Shown here: one piece after another, positions 57,161-64,000 of the stretch
Position numbering within the stretch: the first letter of the stretch is position 1
How the letters are laid out: each line of letters starts with the position of its first letter
Assembly (NCBI RefSeq): GCF_001654835.1
Contig: NZ_LXEP01000007.1
Location: 124,001-188,000, forward strand
Source: Buttiauxella gaviniae ATCC 51604
GTDB taxonomy: Bacteria; Pseudomonadota; Gammaproteobacteria; Enterobacterales; Enterobacteriaceae
DNA length: 64,000 nucleotides
Direction of reading: 5' to 3'
Made by a program: the position numbers and the translations under genes
The notes under the pieces: generated by a model
What the model was told of the DNA's origin: nothing
Database searches by the model: none
The model's input: the letters and a program-made list of their open reading frames with translations, nothing else

Positions 57161-57235
57161 GTCCTCTTAGTTAAATGGATATAACAAGCCCCTCCTAAGG
57201 GCTAGTTGCAGGTTCGATTCCTGCAGGGGACACCA
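57161..57235 (+). tRNA. argW: tRNA-Arg (CCT anticodon)
   Basis: This 75-nt tRNA pairs GTCCTCT with its acceptor partner AGGGGAC, then ACCA is encoded. The D-arm holds AGTTAAATGGATATAAC. The anticodon stem AGCCC/GGGCT encloses loop CTCCTAA with anticodon CCT at 57194-57196, which reads AGG codons. The T-arm has GGTTCGATTCC. It corresponds to E. coli argW, a known prophage integration site, and the following segment looks accessory. Confidence 0.96.
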
Positions 57236-57508: not shown

Positions 57509-58681
57509 TTAGACATTATTTCTGTTCTTATACGCCTCTTTTAATCTCCTCATTGATTCCACGAGTACTGAGCGCGGGCATCCAACGTTTAATCTCATAT
57601 GTCCCTCTCCGCCAGGACCATATTGAATACCAGGCGAAAGACCGAGCTTAGCTTCATGTACAAAAAATGAATTTAGATTCTCATCACTGAGTTTCATTTT
57701 TTCTGCATTAAGGAAAAGCAAATAGGATGCGCCGCCATAAACAACTGATATTAACGGGCAGTTTGTTTCTATCTCTTTTTTTACATACTCAACATTATCA
57801 GATAAATAAGTCAGTAACCTTTGATGCCATTCATCACAGTTGGTATATGCAGAATAAATTGCTGCCTGTTGTAGCGAGTTTGTTTCAGCCAGGTAACAGT
57901 TATCCAAAAAACCATAGAACTTGTTGCGCAAGTCGTTATTTTTAATAATAACCACCCCACCTTGTATAGCCGGGGTATTAAATGTCTTGCTGATAGAGGT
58001 AAGCACTATCGATTGGCTATCCAGCATCTCATTTACCGTAAAAAATGGTATATGTTGCTTGCCCGGCAATGTTAAATCGCAATGAACCTCATCTGATACA
58101 ACAATGACCCCTGCACGATGGCAGTATCTATTTACCTTCTCAATTGTTTCACGGTCCCATACCATCCCGCCAGGATTATGAGGTGAAGAAAAAAGGAACA
58201 TCTTGCAAGTTTTTAGCTTTTCTTTGAAGTCACTCCAATCAAAATAATAACATCCACCTTTCTCGATTAATCCTGTTTGTATCAACTTCCTGCCACTTGT
58301 CTTTATAAAATTTGGATAAGGATCATATATTGGGGTGCATGTTAATATATTATCGCCAGGTTTTGTTAAGGACATTAAAGACAATACTATTGTTCTTATT
58401 ACACCAGGGACAAAATGCAACCAACCTTCCTGGACATCGAAACCATACCGTTTCTTATACCATTCGGTAACCGACTTCTTCCACTGTGGGTGTTCTAGAT
58501 TATATCCTTGCACCGGTTGAGTTACGACAGAATGTAGCGTATTGATAATAGGCTCTGGTGTTCTGAAATCCATATCAGCAATCCAAAGAGGCAATACATC
58601 TTCAGTACCAAACATTTCTTGTAACTGCCCATATTTACGACAACTAGCATCTCTTGCTACTACACAATCAAACAGAGACAT
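57509..58681 (-). CDS. MalY/PatB-type PLP enzyme, copy 1
   Basis: This 390-residue fold-type I aminotransferase-like protein resembles cystathionine beta-lyase MalY/PatB. LPLWIADMDFRTPEPIINTL near residue 35 is the MalY N-terminal signature. SSPHNPGGMVWDRETIEKV and VVSDEVHCDLTLPG are conserved. The PLP lysine is in TSISKTFNTPAIQG near 235, and MRLNVGCPRSVLVESM is near the C-terminus. It would cleave C-S bonds of cysteine conjugates or act as an aminotransferase. I chose the ATG at 58681 because CAGGAG stands six bases upstream. The gene is visibly AT-richer than the backbone. Confidence 0.88.
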   Translation of the reverse strand: MSLFDCVVARDASCRKYGQLQEMFGTEDVLPLWIADMDFRTPEPIINTLHSVVTQPVQGYNLEHPQWKKSVTEWYKKRYGFDVQEGWLHFVPGVIRTIVLSLMSLTKPGDNILTCTPIYDPYPNFIKTSGRKLIQTGLIEKGGCYYFDWSDFKEKLKTCKMFLFSSPHNPGGMVWDRETIEKVNRYCHRAGVIVVSDEVHCDLTLPGKQHIPFFTVNEMLDSQSIVLTSISKTFNTPAIQGGVVIIKNNDLRNKFYGFLDNCYLAETNSLQQAAIYSAYTNCDEWHQRLLTYLSDNVEYVKKEIETNCPLISVVYGGASYLLFLNAEKMKLSDENLNSFFVHEAKLGLSPGIQYGPGGEGHMRLNVGCPRSVLVESMRRLKEAYKNRNNV

Positions 58682-58846
58682 TACACACTCCTGGATCATC
58701 ACCTGAAAAGCTAAGGTGATTTAAAATACAAACTGAATAACACGCATAAAAATTTCATCCGTAGAATATTTCTGCTACAGCATGCGTAACTTAGATAAAT
58801 TAATTCGTATTTTTCGAGTAAATATGAAACTCAATTCACTCTAACA

Positions 58847-60313
58847 TTATAGTTGATGCTCAACGATATTCTCAGTGGCGTCACTCGGTTCACATTTAGC
58901 GATACCGATACCCGTTGCAGCCCAAAGTAATGCAAACATAACTCCGCTGTAGCACAAAATTGCCCACGGTAAATAGTCTAGTGTTGATACGCCCAGCATA
59001 GTGGCGCAATAAACACCTGACGCAGACCAGGGAATAATAGGTTCGACTACCGTCCCTGCGTCCTCAGTTGTCCTGGAGAGATTTTTTGCCGCAAGACCTC
59101 TTCTTTTGTATTCATCTTTAAAAGCATCACCGCATAGCAATAATGGCAAAGTACCGTTTGCTGTACATGCACAGATGGTAAAAGTTGTAATAATCGTTGT
59201 GAGGACCAAACGAAATGTTGATTTGACACCTTTCGTGAGAGCATGAATAACCGTATGCAGCGAGCCCGTTGCGCTCATCGCGCCAGCAAAGCTGAATGCA
59301 CTGAAAACAGTAACAAAGCTACTAAACATAGATATTGCACCACCCCGCTCCAGCAAGCGAGATACATCAGAAGAAAGCGCAGATACATTACTACCCTCGA
59401 TCATAGAGAGCTTAAAGCCACTCACAACCGATTCTCCTACCGATGACGCAGAGAAACCCTGAAAAACTAATGCGAGAATCATGGATATTAATGTAGACAG
59501 GAATAACATAGGAATTGGCGGTTTCTTTGAAAGAGAACCATACAATACAATAATCGGTGGTAATAATAGGAAAATATTAAAATGATAAACACTACCAATT
59601 GACGCCATCAATTTTATAATATTCTCTGGTGTACTAATAGAGGCCTCAATACCCATACCCATACCCATATAACTATATACAATGCTACATAAAATAAACC
59701 CGGGGCCAGTTGTCCACAAAAGATGGCCTATATGCGAGTATAGATTTACACCAGCAGCCAGCGCGGCCATGTTTGTTGAATCAGAGACTGGAGAAAGTTT
59801 ATCACCGAACCAACAACCTGAAACAATAGCCCCGGCAGCAATTGGAAGTGATACATTCAATCCAATGGCAACACCAATCATCGCAATACCAACTGTACCG
59901 ATAGAGCCCCAAGAGGTACCGGTACAAACAGAAATTAATGCTCCAAGAAGAAATGCGGAAATATAGAAATACTGAGGATTAATTAACTTTAAACCATAGT
60001 AAATCATCATCGGTATTGTACCTGAGACCATCCATGCTCCAATTAAGAAACCAATACTCGCTACAATCAGTATTACGGGTAAAGCCTCAGATATTTTTTC
60101 GCAAATGGATTTTAGAATGTCATCCCACGTAAAACCATGAGCTATAGCTATAAATGAAGCAGTAGCTGTCCCCATCAAAATCATGGGCTCCGCACGGATG
60201 TTAAAAACAAAATACCCAATACTAATTCCGCCTAGCATTACGACCATAGGCAAAACAGACCAAAAAAAAGATAATTCCCTTCTACTTTTTGAAGTATAGC
60301 TATTCAATTGCAT
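58847..60313 (-). CDS. NhaC-family Na+/H+ antiporter-type transporter, copy 1
   Basis: This 488-residue inner-membrane protein has about 12 membrane segments. GTSWGSIGTVGIAMIGVAIG, GCWFGDKLSPVSDSTNMAAL and NLSRTTEDAGTVVEPIIPWS are NhaC/ArsB-like signatures. Members exchange Na+ for H+ or for organic anions such as malate/lactate. The gene precedes malY copy 1 by 165 bases in the same direction, suggesting uptake of the MalY substrate. An in-frame TTG at 60325 is the alternative start; the ATG at 60313 has a GGATGGG upstream. It is AT-rich. Confidence 0.88.
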   Translation of the reverse strand: MQLNSYTSKSRRELSFFWSVLPMVVMLGGISIGYFVFNIRAEPMILMGTATASFIAIAHGFTWDDILKSICEKISEALPVILIVASIGFLIGAWMVSGTIPMMIYYGLKLINPQYFYISAFLLGALISVCTGTSWGSIGTVGIAMIGVAIGLNVSLPIAAGAIVSGCWFGDKLSPVSDSTNMAALAAGVNLYSHIGHLLWTTGPGFILCSIVYSYMGMGMGIEASISTPENIIKLMASIGSVYHFNIFLLLPPIIVLYGSLSKKPPIPMLFLSTLISMILALVFQGFSASSVGESVVSGFKLSMIEGSNVSALSSDVSRLLERGGAISMFSSFVTVFSAFSFAGAMSATGSLHTVIHALTKGVKSTFRLVLTTIITTFTICACTANGTLPLLLCGDAFKDEYKRRGLAAKNLSRTTEDAGTVVEPIIPWSASGVYCATMLGVSTLDYLPWAILCYSGVMFALLWAATGIGIAKCEPSDATENIVEHQL

Positions 60314-60485
60314 AATCCCATCCAATAGTTAGTGGTTTGTATTTGAACAGATAAGAAAAACGCCTATGATATTTAACCTTACATTAAAATGGCCAACCCA
60401 ATTATTTTCATGGAAATCACATACTTTCAATACCAATATAATGGAATTTATTTCAACACAATACTACTACGGGCTTTCTTAATAA

Positions 60486-61424
60486 TTATCCCTCCACGTA
60501 GAGTTGGTGATTTATTCGTTGTTGACTCAATTTACGATACTGCTGCGGTGGCATACCGACGTATTTATTAAATGTACTATAAAAACGGCTACTAGAACGA
60601 AACCCTGCAATAATAGCTATATCTAGAATAGTCTTATCGGTGTCGCTTAGTAGTGCTCTCACATGGTTAATACGCATTGCAGTAATATATTGCTTCATAG
60701 TCAGTTGCATAACTCTCTGGAAAATACCCATGGCATAGTTTGGGTTCAGTTTCACATATTCCGCGATAGCGTTAACTGTCAAAATTTTGTCACAGTGTGT
60801 GGCAATAAACTCAAGCATTTGGCTAACATAAAACTGTGAGTGCCGCGAAAGACTATTTTTCTGAGTGCGTGACGTTTTATTAACCAGCACAGGCTGCCAG
60901 CCAGATAGACTAAAGCGCTTTAGCATTAAGGCAATTTCATCGATTGCTAACTGGCGAACCTGCTCATTAGTACTATTCAGTTCATGTTGCCAACGCTGAA
61001 CTTCAAAAATGCTGAGTTGCTGTGCTGATAAGGATTTAATCACCATTCCATGAGTCACGTGATTAATCAATTCGCGATCCAGCGGCCAGGATAAAAATAA
61101 ATGCATTGGTAAGTTGAATATTGCCATTTGTTTGCAATGGCCTGGATTTGTAAGCTGATGTGGGGTACAAGCCCAAAACAGGGTGATATAACCTTGCTTG
61201 ACTCGCACCAATTCATCATTAATCAGATATTCCACATCCCCGTCAAATGGCACATTAACTTCAACCTGACCATGCCAGTGGCTGTAGCTCATTGCCAATG
61301 GCGCCCGCAGCTCGACATCCATACGCTGATACTCTGAATAGAGTGCAAGTGGGCTACGAGTCTTTTTTTCATAACTGCGGCACATATGGGGATCATGCGG
61401 CAGTCGCGGAGTACTGTTTTCCAT
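60486..61424 (-). CDS. melR: AraC-family regulator MelR, without melAB beside it
   Basis: This 312-residue regulator is close to E. coli MelR over nearly its whole length, with an N-terminal cupin (VEVNVPFDGDVEYLINDE, ITLFWACTPHQLT) and two C-terminal helix-turn-helices (IFQRVMQLTMKQYITAMRIN; DIAIIAGFRSSSRFYSTF). In E. coli MelR with melibiose activates melAB and is divergent from it. Here no melA or melB lies beside it: an apparently non-coding 414-base stretch and then yaiL are upstream, and the NhaC gene is downstream. It may now serve other targets. Confidence 0.92.
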   Translation of the reverse strand: MENSTPRLPHDPHMCRSYEKKTRSPLALYSEYQRMDVELRAPLAMSYSHWHGQVEVNVPFDGDVEYLINDELVRVKQGYITLFWACTPHQLTNPGHCKQMAIFNLPMHLFLSWPLDRELINHVTHGMVIKSLSAQQLSIFEVQRWQHELNSTNEQVRQLAIDEIALMLKRFSLSGWQPVLVNKTSRTQKNSLSRHSQFYVSQMLEFIATHCDKILTVNAIAEYVKLNPNYAMGIFQRVMQLTMKQYITAMRINHVRALLSDTDKTILDIAIIAGFRSSSRFYSTFNKYVGMPPQQYRKLSQQRINHQLYVEG

Positions 61425-61838
61425 TATAGGTTGAGTTCCTGGACCATGAATCTGACCGAGATGTCATATCAAAACATGGTTACAGCTTAACCGAAAAAAA
61501 CCTCCGTTTTATCTCCATTTTCGCGAAATCATTCCCAGAAACTCAGATTTTATGTTTATCAATTGCAGATCTGAGTTATCGGGAATATGGAATCTTATGC
61601 AGTAAGTGATGTCACTCGATCATTTTTTATCGCTAAGAACAAACGTCATTCCAAGTTCGCTGAGGTGGACGCCATAGTCCATTGAGATAATTCCAGTTCT
61701 TGTCTCCCCTATAACCCATCCCGGTTTTGTACTTATCTTTGAATCTGCTAAGCCATAGAGCGTTGCCTGCAAAAAAACAACAACACTACCTCTGGTATGA
61801 AAGGTATAATCTTGCCCACGATTTGATTTTTTTAGACC
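61425..61838. other. Upstream stretch between melR and yaiL
   Basis: This is 414 bases without an annotated gene. CTCAGAT (around 61550) and ATCTGAG (around 61575) give an inverted repeat near the melR promoter side. The part from 61620 to 61859 carries a minus-strand open frame without a start codon, listed separately. I found no convincing CRP or MelR binding site and no remains of melA. Confidence 0.4.
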
Positions 61839-61859
61839 ATGAACATGACAAAACTCACA
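61620..61859 (-). pseudogene. Start-less open frame, possible gene remnant
   Basis: From 61859 to the stop at 61620-61622 the minus strand is open for 79 codons but has no ATG in a plausible place. The translated end runs LYGLADSKISTKPGWVIGET, then ISMDYGVHLSELGMTFVLS, which reads like real protein. It overlaps the start of yaiL by about 20 bases. It could be the 3' end of a lost gene, or a gene with a rare start. I do not recognise the family. Confidence 0.35.
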
Positions 61860-62384
61860 TTACAAGAGCAGATGCTTAAAGCTGGCTTAGTTAGCAGCAA
61901 AAAAATGGCCAAAGTTCAGAGAACGGCCAAAAAATCACGAGTTCAGGCTCGTGAGGCGCGCGAGGCAGTGGAAGAGAATAAAAAGGCGCAAATTGAGCGT
62001 GATAAAGAGCTGGTTGAACAACAAAAGCAGGCTGCTTTATCAAAAGAATATAAGGCTCAAATTAAACAGCTTATTGAAATGAATAGAATTGTTATTTCAA
62101 AAGGCGATATTGGCTATAACTTCACAGATAACAATTTAATTAAAAAAATCTATGTTGATAAGGTTACTCAGACTCAATTAACCAATGGCCGTCTCGCTAT
62201 TGCTCGTTTGATGACAGATAAAAATCCTGAAGGTGAATACGCGATTATCCCAGCAAGTGTTGCCGATAAAATTGCGCAGCGTGATGCGAGCTATATCGTA
62301 TTAAACAGTACGCTGAGCCAGGAAGCTCAAGACGAAGAAGACCCGTATGCTGACTTTGTCGTGCCTGATGATTTGATGTGGTAG
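61839..62384 (+). CDS. yaiL: YaiL nucleoprotein/polynucleotide-associated protein, DUF2058
   Basis: This 181-residue protein matches E. coli YaiL closely (LTLQEQMLKAGLVSSKKMAK, then a coiled-coil rich in Lys/Arg/Glu, and a C-terminal globular DUF2058 domain with PDDLMW at the end). Its function is uncertain; it has been linked to RNA or nucleoid association. The first ATG at 61839 or the next at 61845 may start it. In E. coli yaiL is elsewhere, so its place beside melR and malY here is a rearrangement or insertion. Confidence 0.9.
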   Translation: MNMTKLTLQEQMLKAGLVSSKKMAKVQRTAKKSRVQAREAREAVEENKKAQIERDKELVEQQKQAALSKEYKAQIKQLIEMNRIVISKGDIGYNFTDNNLIKKIYVDKVTQTQLTNGRLAIARLMTDKNPEGEYAIIPASVADKIAQRDASYIVLNSTLSQEAQDEEDPYADFVVPDDLMW

Positions 62385-62408
62385 GGAAAGTTTCCAGAGC
62401 CCCTTTGA

Positions 62409-62446
62409 AATACGCCCCTCAGCCAAGGCTGGCTGAGGGGCGTATT
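62409..62446. terminator. Bidirectional terminator between yaiL and malY copy 2
   Basis: AATACGCCCCTCAGCCA (62409-62425) and TGGCTGAGGGGCGTATT (62430-62446) form a perfect 17-bp stem with a 4-base loop. It lies between convergent stops. A/T-rich flanks support termination both ways. Confidence 0.85.
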
Positions 62447-62459
62447 ATTGTGTTTGAAG

Positions 62460-63641
62460 TTACTGCGCGCCAATACGCTGTAGCCCTTTGATGGCTTGCT
62501 CAAGATAACTGCGCGGGCAACCGAGGTTCAGTCGTATAAAGCCAGAGCCTGCTGGGCCAAAACCACTTCCCATAGAAGGAGCAATACCGGCTATCTCAGT
62601 CATCACGCTCTTTAACTCATTATCGTTCAAGCCCAATGCTCGGCAATCTATCCATATCAAATAGGTACCTTGTGCCGGAACAACACGTAACCACGGCAAA
62701 TAGTTCTCTATCTGCGACACAAACCAATCACGATTTGCCGCGAGATAATCAAGCAATTCGTCCAGCCACTTTTCGGAACCATTATATGCCGCAGTAGCAG
62801 CTTCCATCGAAAGCGCATTGAATACGTCCAGACCGTGCGCATTTAAACGCTCGATAAATCGCGCCTTTAACCCAGCATCAGGAATAAGGAAGTTAGAGAT
62901 CCGCAGGGATGAAAGTCCAAAGGTTTTACTTGCTGATGTGGCAGCAATTACCCTTGAATGCCAGCGAGACTCAAGATGCAAAACAGAGGTAAACGTTGAT
63001 CCTGGCAGCAGTAGATCAGCCCAGATTTCGTCTGAAAGCACCGTCACATCGTATTTTTCACATAGCGTCAAAAGTTTGGTTAACTCATCTTTGCTCCAGC
63101 AACGCCCGGTAGGGTTATGCGGGTTACACAGAATGAACAGTGGCGGGCGATATTTGCTAAACAATTCCTCTAGCTGCTCAAGATCCATCACATATCCCAC
63201 ATCGGGATCTTCTTGCAGCGGATTCTCAACAAGGTTGCGCTGGTTAAGCGTAATAATCTTGGCAAATGATCCGTAGTACGGCCCCTGAACCACAACGCTA
63301 TCACCCACCTGGCTTAGCATTTGTACCAGCAGTGAAAGACCCGGCACTACCCCTTCAATACTGCAAACCCATTCAGGGTGAATCAGGAGTTGATGACGAC
63401 GCTCAAACCAGTTAGTCAGCGCCGTGTAGTAATTTTCATCACGCTCGCTATAGCCAAATACACCATGTTCAACACGCCGATGAAGCGCCTCCAACACATT
63501 TGGCGGGCAGGCAAAATCATAATCAGAAACCCACATTGGGAGTAAATTGTCGGTTTGCATATTCTGATAACGATCGATGAAATCCCATTTCACTGAACCC
63601 GTAGCATGGCGATTAATCACCTGCTCAAAATTGTTTTTCAT
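62460..63641 (-). CDS. MalY/PatB-type PLP enzyme, copy 2
   Basis: This 393-residue PLP enzyme has LPMWVSDYDFACPPNVLEAL near residue 35, CNPHNPTGRCWSKDELTKL near 172, VLSDEIWADLLLPG near 202 and the PLP lysine in ATSASKTFGLSSLRIS near 237. RLNLGCPRSYLEQAI is at the C-terminus. It is clearly homologous to the copy at 57509 but only moderately similar, and has backbone-like base composition. Its start overlaps the upstream antiporter stop by 4 bases (ATGA), giving tight coupling. Confidence 0.88.
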   Translation of the reverse strand: MKNNFEQVINRHATGSVKWDFIDRYQNMQTDNLLPMWVSDYDFACPPNVLEALHRRVEHGVFGYSERDENYYTALTNWFERRHQLLIHPEWVCSIEGVVPGLSLLVQMLSQVGDSVVVQGPYYGSFAKIITLNQRNLVENPLQEDPDVGYVMDLEQLEELFSKYRPPLFILCNPHNPTGRCWSKDELTKLLTLCEKYDVTVLSDEIWADLLLPGSTFTSVLHLESRWHSRVIAATSASKTFGLSSLRISNFLIPDAGLKARFIERLNAHGLDVFNALSMEAATAAYNGSEKWLDELLDYLAANRDWFVSQIENYLPWLRVVPAQGTYLIWIDCRALGLNDNELKSVMTEIAGIAPSMGSGFGPAGSGFIRLNLGCPRSYLEQAIKGLQRIGAQ

Positions 63642-64000
63642 GATGTAGCCTCCTGCTTTGAATTCTCCATTGGAGTAGTGACCTTAATCGGTGCTTTAGC
63701 GATACCAAACCCGGTAAAACCATAAATCAAAGCAAAGAAAATAGCGGAGTAACACTGTACGGCCCAGGGTAAGAAATCCAGAGTGCTTACGCCCAGTGTT
63801 GTCGCCATATAGACGCCCGCTGCGGTCCATGGAATAAGAGGCTCAATCACAGTTCCCGCATCTTCAATGGTGCGGGAAAGATTTTTAGTATCTAAACCCA
63901 TGCGGCGATACGCATCCTGATAAAGCTCGGCCGGAACCAGCAGCGCCAGTTTGCCGTCGCTGGTAGCAGCCGTAACCAGAATAGTCGTGCCGATAGTGGC
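63638..64000 (-). CDS. NhaC-family antiporter-type transporter, copy 2, C-terminal part
   Basis: The open frame continues to the window edge, so only the last 120 residues are seen. They include LLVPAELYQDAYRRMGLDTK, NLSRTIEDAGTVIEPLIPWT and GVYMATTLGVSTLDFLPWA, matching the corresponding C-terminus of copy 1 almost position by position. It is translationally coupled to malY copy 2. The N-terminus and upstream regulators lie outside. Confidence 0.88.
   Translation of the reverse strand, partial: ATIGTTILVTAATSDGKLALLVPAELYQDAYRRMGLDTKNLSRTIEDAGTVIEPLIPWTAAGVYMATTLGVSTLDFLPWAVQCYSAIFFALIYGFTGFGIAKAPIKVTTPMENSKQEATS

Follow-up and report, generated by a model that had tools for sequence, protein, structure and literature searches.

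Recurrent NhaC–MalY modules in Buttiauxella gaviniae combine a predicted importer and lyase with sugar-type regulators

Why would a bacterium encode, twice within a few kilobases, a gene for a putative Na+/H+ antiporter followed by one for a pyridoxal phosphate (PLP) lyase? The question arises at one end of a 64,000-nucleotide stretch of Buttiauxella gaviniae ATCC 51604 (contig NZ_LXEP01000007.1, positions 124,001 to 188,000; hereafter the window), where NhaC-family and PatB/MalY-family genes form two modules on the minus strand. Module 1 consists of melR2 (60486..61424), nhaC1 (58847..60325; the open reading frame starts with TTG at 60325, and ATG at 60313 is the likely start) and malY1 (57509..58702; the frame opens with GTG at 58702, and ATG at 58681 is the likelier start). 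Module 2 consists of malY2 (62460..63641), nhaC2 and a GalR-like regulator gene. Only the 3′ part of nhaC2 (63638..64000) lies in the window; the whole gene (L004:7639-9219, probable ATG at L004:9105) and the regulator gene beyond the window end (L004:9256-10323) were read from L004, the locus of the same genome that extends past that end (window coordinate = L004 coordinate + 55999). We conclude with high confidence that NhaC–MalY is a functional unit, a real and recurrent importer–lyase module, and we tentatively propose a sugar-bearing amino acid as its substrate.

Both transporters score above the cut-off of the TIGR00931 NhaC model (483 bits for NhaC1 and 518 for NhaC2; cut-off 370), and both lyases exceed that of the TIGR04350 PatB model (397 bits for MalY1 and 396 for MalY2; cut-off 340). 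These scores and the coordinates bear out the first-pass annotation, which had described two modules in the same order. Its other structural claims held as well: copy 1 is AT-rich, with a G+C content in 1-kb steps of 0.37–0.42 against 0.48 across copy 2, and has a gap of 165 bases between malY1 and nhaC1 when the MalY1 ATG start is used, whereas malY2 and nhaC2 overlap by 4 bases. The two NhaC proteins share 48–49% identity and fall in different clades of the NhaC tree, and the lyases share 28–29%; recent duplication of one module was rejected on these grounds, as the annotation had supposed. Across an alignment of 28 PLP lyases, 12 columns are invariant, and the PLP-binding lysine (the column of E. 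coli MalY K233) is kept in 24 of 24 paired lyases and both references. Together with the family scores, the conserved active-site residues mark MalY1 and MalY2 as predicted C–S β-lyases.

Linkage of nhaC and malY in other genomes had been set beforehand as a check on the idea of a functional unit. We surveyed 295 sampled genomes of the family for NhaC (E ≤ 1e-60) and obtained 52 places, 31 of which have MalY beside NhaC (29 of 50 within 600 bases, plus L220 and L221). The pair also occurs in Actinomycetes, at 3 of 34 distinct NhaC places (3 of 20 with wide flanks and 0 of 14 with 1.5-kb flanks; seeded with Mobiluncus L096/L320), and in Clostridia, at 3 of the 63 places read; the Clostridial seed G305 (L068) is also linked and stands outside that count. 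The Clostridial reading covered 62 of 67 listed places and one unlisted place, leaving out G305, G948, G1088, G967:C9 and G990:C218; L385, where MalY lies two genes off, was not scored as linked. The pair is rarer in these two groups than in the family of the host. Gene order varies: NhaC comes before MalY in module 1, module 2 and related loci, and MalY comes first in the xylose-operon loci described below as well as in L081, L093, L094, L096, L311 and L312. A further set of 79 loci was found with paired NhaCs as the query and is therefore biased towards pairs; in it, the lyase frame is missing from L037, L041, L049, L062, L064, L083, L091, L092 and L095, and fragments remain in L060 and L080. 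In four Photorhabdus loci (L060, L080, L063 and L170, the last being the same place as L063), NhaC2 modules are duplicated or rearranged, with pieces lying on either strand or two NhaCs in tandem. Elsewhere in Firmicutes and Actinomycetes, NhaC stands beside an amidohydrolase like that at L083:8495-9637 (L083, L091, L313-L319, L337, L352, L379 and L388).

Within Buttiauxella, 5 of 12 genomes carry an NhaC over the cut-off; four have module 2 and two have module 1, our genome having both, and a sixth genome retains only a truncated nhaC2 beside malY2. NhaC2 is 98% identical to its nearest named locus, from B. noackiae. A distant blastn search of 5,426 E. coli genomes found none covering 80% of module 1, the 12 matches listed hitting melR only, and no match to module 2. 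By protein search, NhaC1 relatives were found on 58 plasmid records, including 21 from E. coli and 20 from Serratia. Among the nine records inspected for gene neighbours, four read LacI-type regulator > NhaC > MalY (L391, L393 and L399 from Klebsiella and Serratia, and L395 from Vibrio), two read MalY > NhaC (L394 from E. coli and L396, a 425-kb Citrobacter record with chromosome-like genes) and a Paenibacillus record reads PAS > MalY > NhaC > RidA (L392); the Cetobacterium record has NhaC with no lyase among its listed genes (L397), and the Proteus record has no listed genes (L398).

Is the pairing simply inherited, or has it been assembled repeatedly? In a quick tree of 85 NhaC rows, the lyase-, fucosidase-, Cys/Met-enzyme- and amidohydrolase-linked NhaCs, with the exception of L385, fall in one half of 40 rows (SH-like approximate likelihood ratio test 99), in which only L179, L321 and L092 have no such neighbour. 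Over 24 NhaC–MalY pairs, the identity matrices of the two proteins are correlated (Mantel r = 0.76; 0 of 5,000 permutations), in line with the co-evolution that the first-pass annotation had proposed to look for. MalY1, however, does not follow the relatives of its partner: NhaC1 groups with Succinivibrionaceae NhaCs (support 100), and a MalY tree that forces MalY1 together with the Succinivibrionaceae lyases is rejected (approximately unbiased test, p = 0.00013). At least one lyase partner has therefore been swapped, and the partners are not simply co-inherited. That the pair was put together more than once speaks for a common function. Its recurrence in several phyla, whichever gene comes first, agrees with the earlier suggestion of a functional unit, which the linkage check did not refute.

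What, then, would NhaC carry? An AlphaFold model of NhaC1 (predicted local distance difference test 83; predicted template modelling score 0.81) matched best, in a PDB library, the MleN entry 9a59 (E 7e-27), itself an integrative model. Next among the best 50 of 801 matches came TRAP carriers for sialic acid and isethionate, along with ArsB and DASS carriers, and NhaA did not appear in those 50. Carriers that share the predicted fold take carboxylate substrates; this favours an organic substrate without settling the matter. Other members of the family have been predicted to carry methionine, tyrosine or arginine/ornithine, according to the available text of the reports (PMC2940859, PMC2494555, PMC6615313). 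The modules here share family and predicted fold with these carriers and with MleN, and differ from them in pairing NhaC with PatB lyases and sugar-type regulators.

The fold bears directly on the possibility that NhaC is a true Na+/H+ antiporter maintaining Na+ balance during sugar uptake, with MalY acting as a regulator of the sugar regulon in the way that E. coli MalY acts on MalT. The name of the family and the sugar-operon context would suit such an arrangement, E. coli MalY is annotated as a negative regulator of MalT, and two archaeal NhaC-family proteins are reported, in the portion of the source available, to be Na+(K+, Li+)/H+ antiporters (PMC10342064). We nevertheless consider it unlikely: besides the structural matches, the lyase active-site residues are kept, and RidA genes adjoining some of the pairs suggest catalysis. 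Moreover, the regulators belong to different families from module to module (AraC, LacI, XylR and ROK), which makes a single protein–protein target for MalY improbable.

The regulators themselves offer an indication of the substrate. The first-pass annotation had treated melR as a separate gene bracketed by two modules, thereby splitting the modules from their regulators, and this view had to be abandoned. MelR2 scores 564 bits against the MelR model NF007693 (cut-off 253) and is 81% identical to E. coli MelR, yet melR2 is not divergent from melAB, and no MelA orthologue was found in the genome, where five GH4 genes have at most 27% identity to E. coli MelA or no match. A quick tree of 53 MelR-family proteins (33 beside melA, 15 beside NhaC and 5 others) separates NhaC-linked from melA-linked MelRs with a single change over 48 labelled rows and a support of 100 on the melA side; six long branches were flagged in it, including the NhaC-linked L211. 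Both types occur together in three genomes (G033, G177 and G260), and another genome of the genus, G002, has melR-melAB without NhaC. Because a melAB partner is missing and all 15 rows on its side of the tree adjoin NhaC, we class melR2 as a MelR paralogue linked to copy 1, distinct from the regulator of melibiose use.

Two MelR-type operator sites in inverted orientation (61532-61549 and 61568-61585) stand upstream of melR2, matching the E. coli melR-melA site at 17 and 14 of 18 positions with the same 36-base offset; nowhere else in the window is the match as good. In 8 of 10 melR2 loci, each arm agrees at 13 or more of 18 positions, L090 having 16 and 11 and L210 one arm only; in 300 letter shuffles per locus, the best single site scored 13–15. 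Neither the interval between melR2 and nhaC1 in the window nor Budvicia yielded a good MelR site. Module 1 thus keeps the regulator and operator pair of the MelR-melAB system and differs from it in that nhaC1-malY1 take the place of melAB as the linked genes.

The regulator of module 2 points in a similar direction. With 311 bits (cut-off 557) and 310 bits (cut-off 555), it falls below both GalR/GalS equivalog models, and its core is 40% identical to GalR. At 18 of 20 chosen ligand-pocket sites, it equals GalR or GalS; across 13 module regulators, 15–18 of these sites are of GalR/GalS type, compared with 4 in PurR, 6 in RbsR, 7 in CytR, 7 in MalI and 4 in LacI. Where GalR and GalS agree, 16 of 17 pocket sites are matched versus 68 of 127 sites elsewhere (Fisher p = 0.0008). 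At LacI site 248, all 13 module regulators share a valine in place of the serine of GalR or the asparagine of GalS, and their ligand may therefore be other than plain galactose. Between the GalR-like gene and nhaC2 lies a palindrome (L004:9183-9200; shuffle mean 0), which is conserved in 13 of 16 loci; L044 and L055 lack it, and L197 has a degenerate form. Because the site lies past the window end, a scan inside the window found none. CRP-like sites matching at least 8 of 10 positions in 13 of 16 copy-2 intergenic regions, counted without a shuffle control, are only suggestive.

Beyond the window, some of the pairs lie in xylose operons. The genes MalY > NhaC > XylA > XylB form one run in L191-L194, from four genomes of the family, and it contains the sole XylA found in each genome. 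The run is divergent from XylR in L192-L194 (68–81% identical to E. coli XylR; PF22177 in L192), whose genomes have no XylF over the cut-off, and divergent from XylF in L191. In a fifth locus, L195, XylR stands beside MalY and NhaC, and XylA is found only some 16 kb farther off. In Clostridia, a ROK-type regulator precedes GalM-like > MalY > NhaC > XylA > XylB (L336 and L341) or MalY > NhaC > sugar ABC > XylA > XylB (L350), and in Actinomycetales it precedes XylA > MalY > NhaC > XylB (L312) or XylA > XylB > MalY > NhaC (Mobiluncus L096/L320). Hence all three lyase-linked Clostridial places are xylose operons, as are two of the three Actinomycete ones (L312 and L320); with Mobiluncus L320 set aside as known beforehand, four of five survey pairs outside the family sit in xylA/xylB operons. 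Overall, 9 of 35 lyase-linked NhaCs, counting Mobiluncus, have XylA within 6 kb, as against none of the 98 others (Fisher p = 3e-6, uncorrected for descent). Sugar genes of other kinds also appear: in Budvicia, a melA-like GH4 gene (51% identical to E. coli MelA) directly precedes NhaC1 > MalY1, and a MelB-like gene adjoins the pair in L066. Mutarotases are common members of xylose operons, and the mutarotase beside xylA was for that reason downgraded from strong to weak evidence.

If sugar genes surround the transporter, might NhaC of this clade carry free sugars or simple glycosides, with the lyase a hitch-hiker? Lyase-free NhaCs lend this some colour. One stands beside an α-L-fucosidase gene together with FucI, FucK and FucA in an enterobacterial locus (L216:1909-10176), another overlaps or adjoins an α-L-fucosidase gene in an actinomycete (L322, 2177-5382), the two fucosidases being 59% identical, and a third, in L064, has GalM and genes of a sugar ABC system next to it. 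In the family survey, however, pairing with a lyase is far commoner than pairing with any sugar enzyme, and the predicted cargoes of other NhaC-family members are amino acids; free-sugar transport therefore strikes us as very improbable.

A PLP lyase needs a free α-amino acid and a sugar operon needs a sugar, so glycosyl-serine or glycosyl-cysteine is the simplest candidate. Each module would be a small catabolic unit composed of a sugar-type regulator, an importer of the NhaC family (ion-transporter superfamily) and a PatB-type PLP β-lyase. NhaC would take up sugar-X-CH2-CH(NH2)-COOH, where X is the oxygen of serine or the sulfur of cysteine, and the lyase would eliminate the sugar-bearing group, freeing the sugar (or 1-thiosugar) and leaving 2-aminoacrylate, which would decay to pyruvate and ammonia. 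RidA acts on 2-aminoacrylate, and the RidA genes next to some of the pairs are therefore compatible with β-elimination. The sugar would most likely be galactose in this window, given the GalR-like regulator of module 2 and the MelR paralogue, of α-galactoside type, in module 1; in the relatives within xylA/xylB operons, it would be xylose. This account could well be right, although we hold it short of even confidence; we infer the substrate, the direction of transport, the reaction and the choice between oxygen and sulfur.

The main alternative is plain thioether scavenging, in which NhaC imports cystathionine, lanthionine, S-alkylcysteine or a similar compound and MalY yields a thiol, pyruvate and ammonia; sugar regulators would then have been captured because the compound serves as a carbon source under the same conditions. 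PatB is a C–S lyase family, and RidA-linked operons occur without xylose genes. Another NhaC lineage of Enterobacterales and Actinomycetes stands beside Cys/Met-metabolism PLP enzymes (L174-L177, L190, L250, L252 and L327-L329; PF01053 confirmed in L174, the rest assigned by similarity), and in the Clostridial locus L385, NhaC occurs with a PALP-family enzyme and MalY. E. coli, too, pairs a cysteine importer with a desulfidase, as the source describes in the part available (PMC9040844). Nothing in thioether scavenging, however, would lead one to expect pairs placed within xylA/xylB operons of three bacterial classes, a GalR-type pocket or a MelR paralogue, and we regard it as a genuine but lesser possibility. 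The first-pass annotation had proposed import and C–S cleavage of a thioether: the importer–lyase part stands, in agreement with the organic-substrate carrier fold and the retained PLP residues, whereas the sugar-type regulators (the MelR paralogue, GalR-like, XylR and ROK), together with xylA/xylB and the melA-like gene, favour a sugar-bearing amino acid over a plain thioether. The substrate remains a prediction, and plain thioethers stay plausible, above all for the RidA-type pairs.

Several observations, the archaeal antiporters among them, weigh against a sugar-bearing substrate. The xylose label needs only three changes on the NhaC tree, the survey rows are not independent by descent, and the MalY frame of L195 is interrupted by one stop. 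The sugar-operon genes searched for were not found beside many pairs, including the RidA/YheO type of Lachnospiraceae (with L068/G305), those of Levilactobacillus and Succinivibrionaceae, and L081, L093, L094, L311 and the inspected E. coli plasmid record; xylA/xylB are likewise not among the listed neighbours of the lyase-linked L068-L072 and L077 (Lachnospiraceae) and L081, L093 and L094 (Actinomycete), all of which come from the biased set of 79 loci. One Citrobacter pair follows malEFG, and we know of no natural glycosyl amino acid that would suit that setting. In seven loci, nhaC2 and the GalR-like regulator occur with no tblastn match to a lyase (L037, L041, L049 on a short contig, L062, L095, L209 and L212). 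The 20 pocket sites were chosen from what we take to be the ligand contacts of LacI, and, to our knowledge, no PatB-family enzyme acts on glycosyl-serine. The nearest chemical precedent, LmbF of lincomycin biosynthesis, is a PLP enzyme that β-eliminates S-glycosyl-L-cysteine; it is biosynthetic, acts on an octose conjugate and is not established here, from the available part of the source, as a member of the PatB family (PMC11794154).

Where might such compounds come from? Xylosyl-serine occurs in the proteoglycans of animals. The α-galactose on serine of plant extensin is a possible source of galactosyl-serine, as far as the accessible text of the report goes (PMC5371791). It is conceivable, albeit doubtful, that these modules form a previously undescribed route for eating glycoprotein remnants, in which NhaC imports O-glycosyl-serine and a PLP β-lyase, instead of a glycosidase, releases sugar, pyruvate and ammonia, each module being plugged into the matching sugar regulon. 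With the same reservation, the substrates may be galactosyl-serine as in extensin for this window and xylosyl-serine as in proteoglycans for the xylose-operon type. In the open-licence literature, we found no description of an NhaC module with MalY, PatB or xylA/xylB, no title on bacterial glycosyl-serine uptake and none on β-elimination of galactosyl-serine by a pyridoxal lyase; S-glycosyl-cysteine appeared there in lincosamide and proteomics papers only. An Rfam search of 10 Firmicute loci for a riboswitch clue to the substrate returned one tRNA only.

Related systems are known in part. The E. coli malI-malX-malY locus likewise combines a PatB/MalY lyase with a repressor and a sugar permease, but its transporter is a phosphotransferase system permease, and E. 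coli MalY forms a separate long branch of the lyase tree. CyuP–CyuA of E. coli, unlike the modules, presumably consists of unrelated protein families and has no sugar regulator. It resembles them in pairing an importer with a lyase, and breaks down a sulfur-containing amino acid into pyruvate and ammonium, according to the available text (PMC9040844). The alf-2 pathway of Lactobacillus casei is similarly dedicated to uptake and breakdown of an amino-acid-bound sugar, fucosyl-GlcNAc-asparagine; it employs an MFS permease, a fucosidase and a glycosylasparaginase, and the accessible part of the report names no β-lyase (PMC6960285).

Module 1 looks like a cassette, because window positions 57528-61586 (melR2-nhaC1-malY1 and the operator pair) match another Buttiauxella genome (L217) at 80% among other neighbours, and because relatives without module 1 keep the yaiL flank. 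The neighbours in L217 resemble what we take to be nap genes. The DUF2058 gene yaiL (61839-62384), which lies between the two modules, is common to relatives without module 1 and is a backbone gene; the part of L021, L218 and L221 that aligns to the window begins just upstream of it (61767-61784), except that L021 and L221 also show weak cross-matches of one NhaC type with the other. The low G+C content of module 1 is consistent with horizontal gain. Module 1 ends, at its 3′ side, about 270 bases from a tRNA-Arg(CCT) gene (57161-57235), a possible integration site. On the side of module 2, the GalR-like gene is preceded by a lipoprotein gene of the alanine-racemase family (L004:10468-11703; NF009879, 469 bits). 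Among annotated loci, this gene is found near copy 2 only in Buttiauxella (our genome, L021, L218 and L221); it is missing from L219 and L220 of the same genus and was set aside as a module component. Farther on, a gene whose large, repetitive product contains an Ig-like domain (NF012196; L004:11887-13965) extends to the contig end.

If the proposed role is correct, it would assign a function to many genes labelled ‘Na+/H+ antiporter NhaC’, as well as to PatB lyases whose substrate has been obscure, and it would correct the naming of a MelR paralogue. It would also provide gut-, plant- and insect-associated bacteria with a route to use sugar–amino acid conjugates, and it would bear on the role of MalY in the malI-malXY system of E. 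coli.

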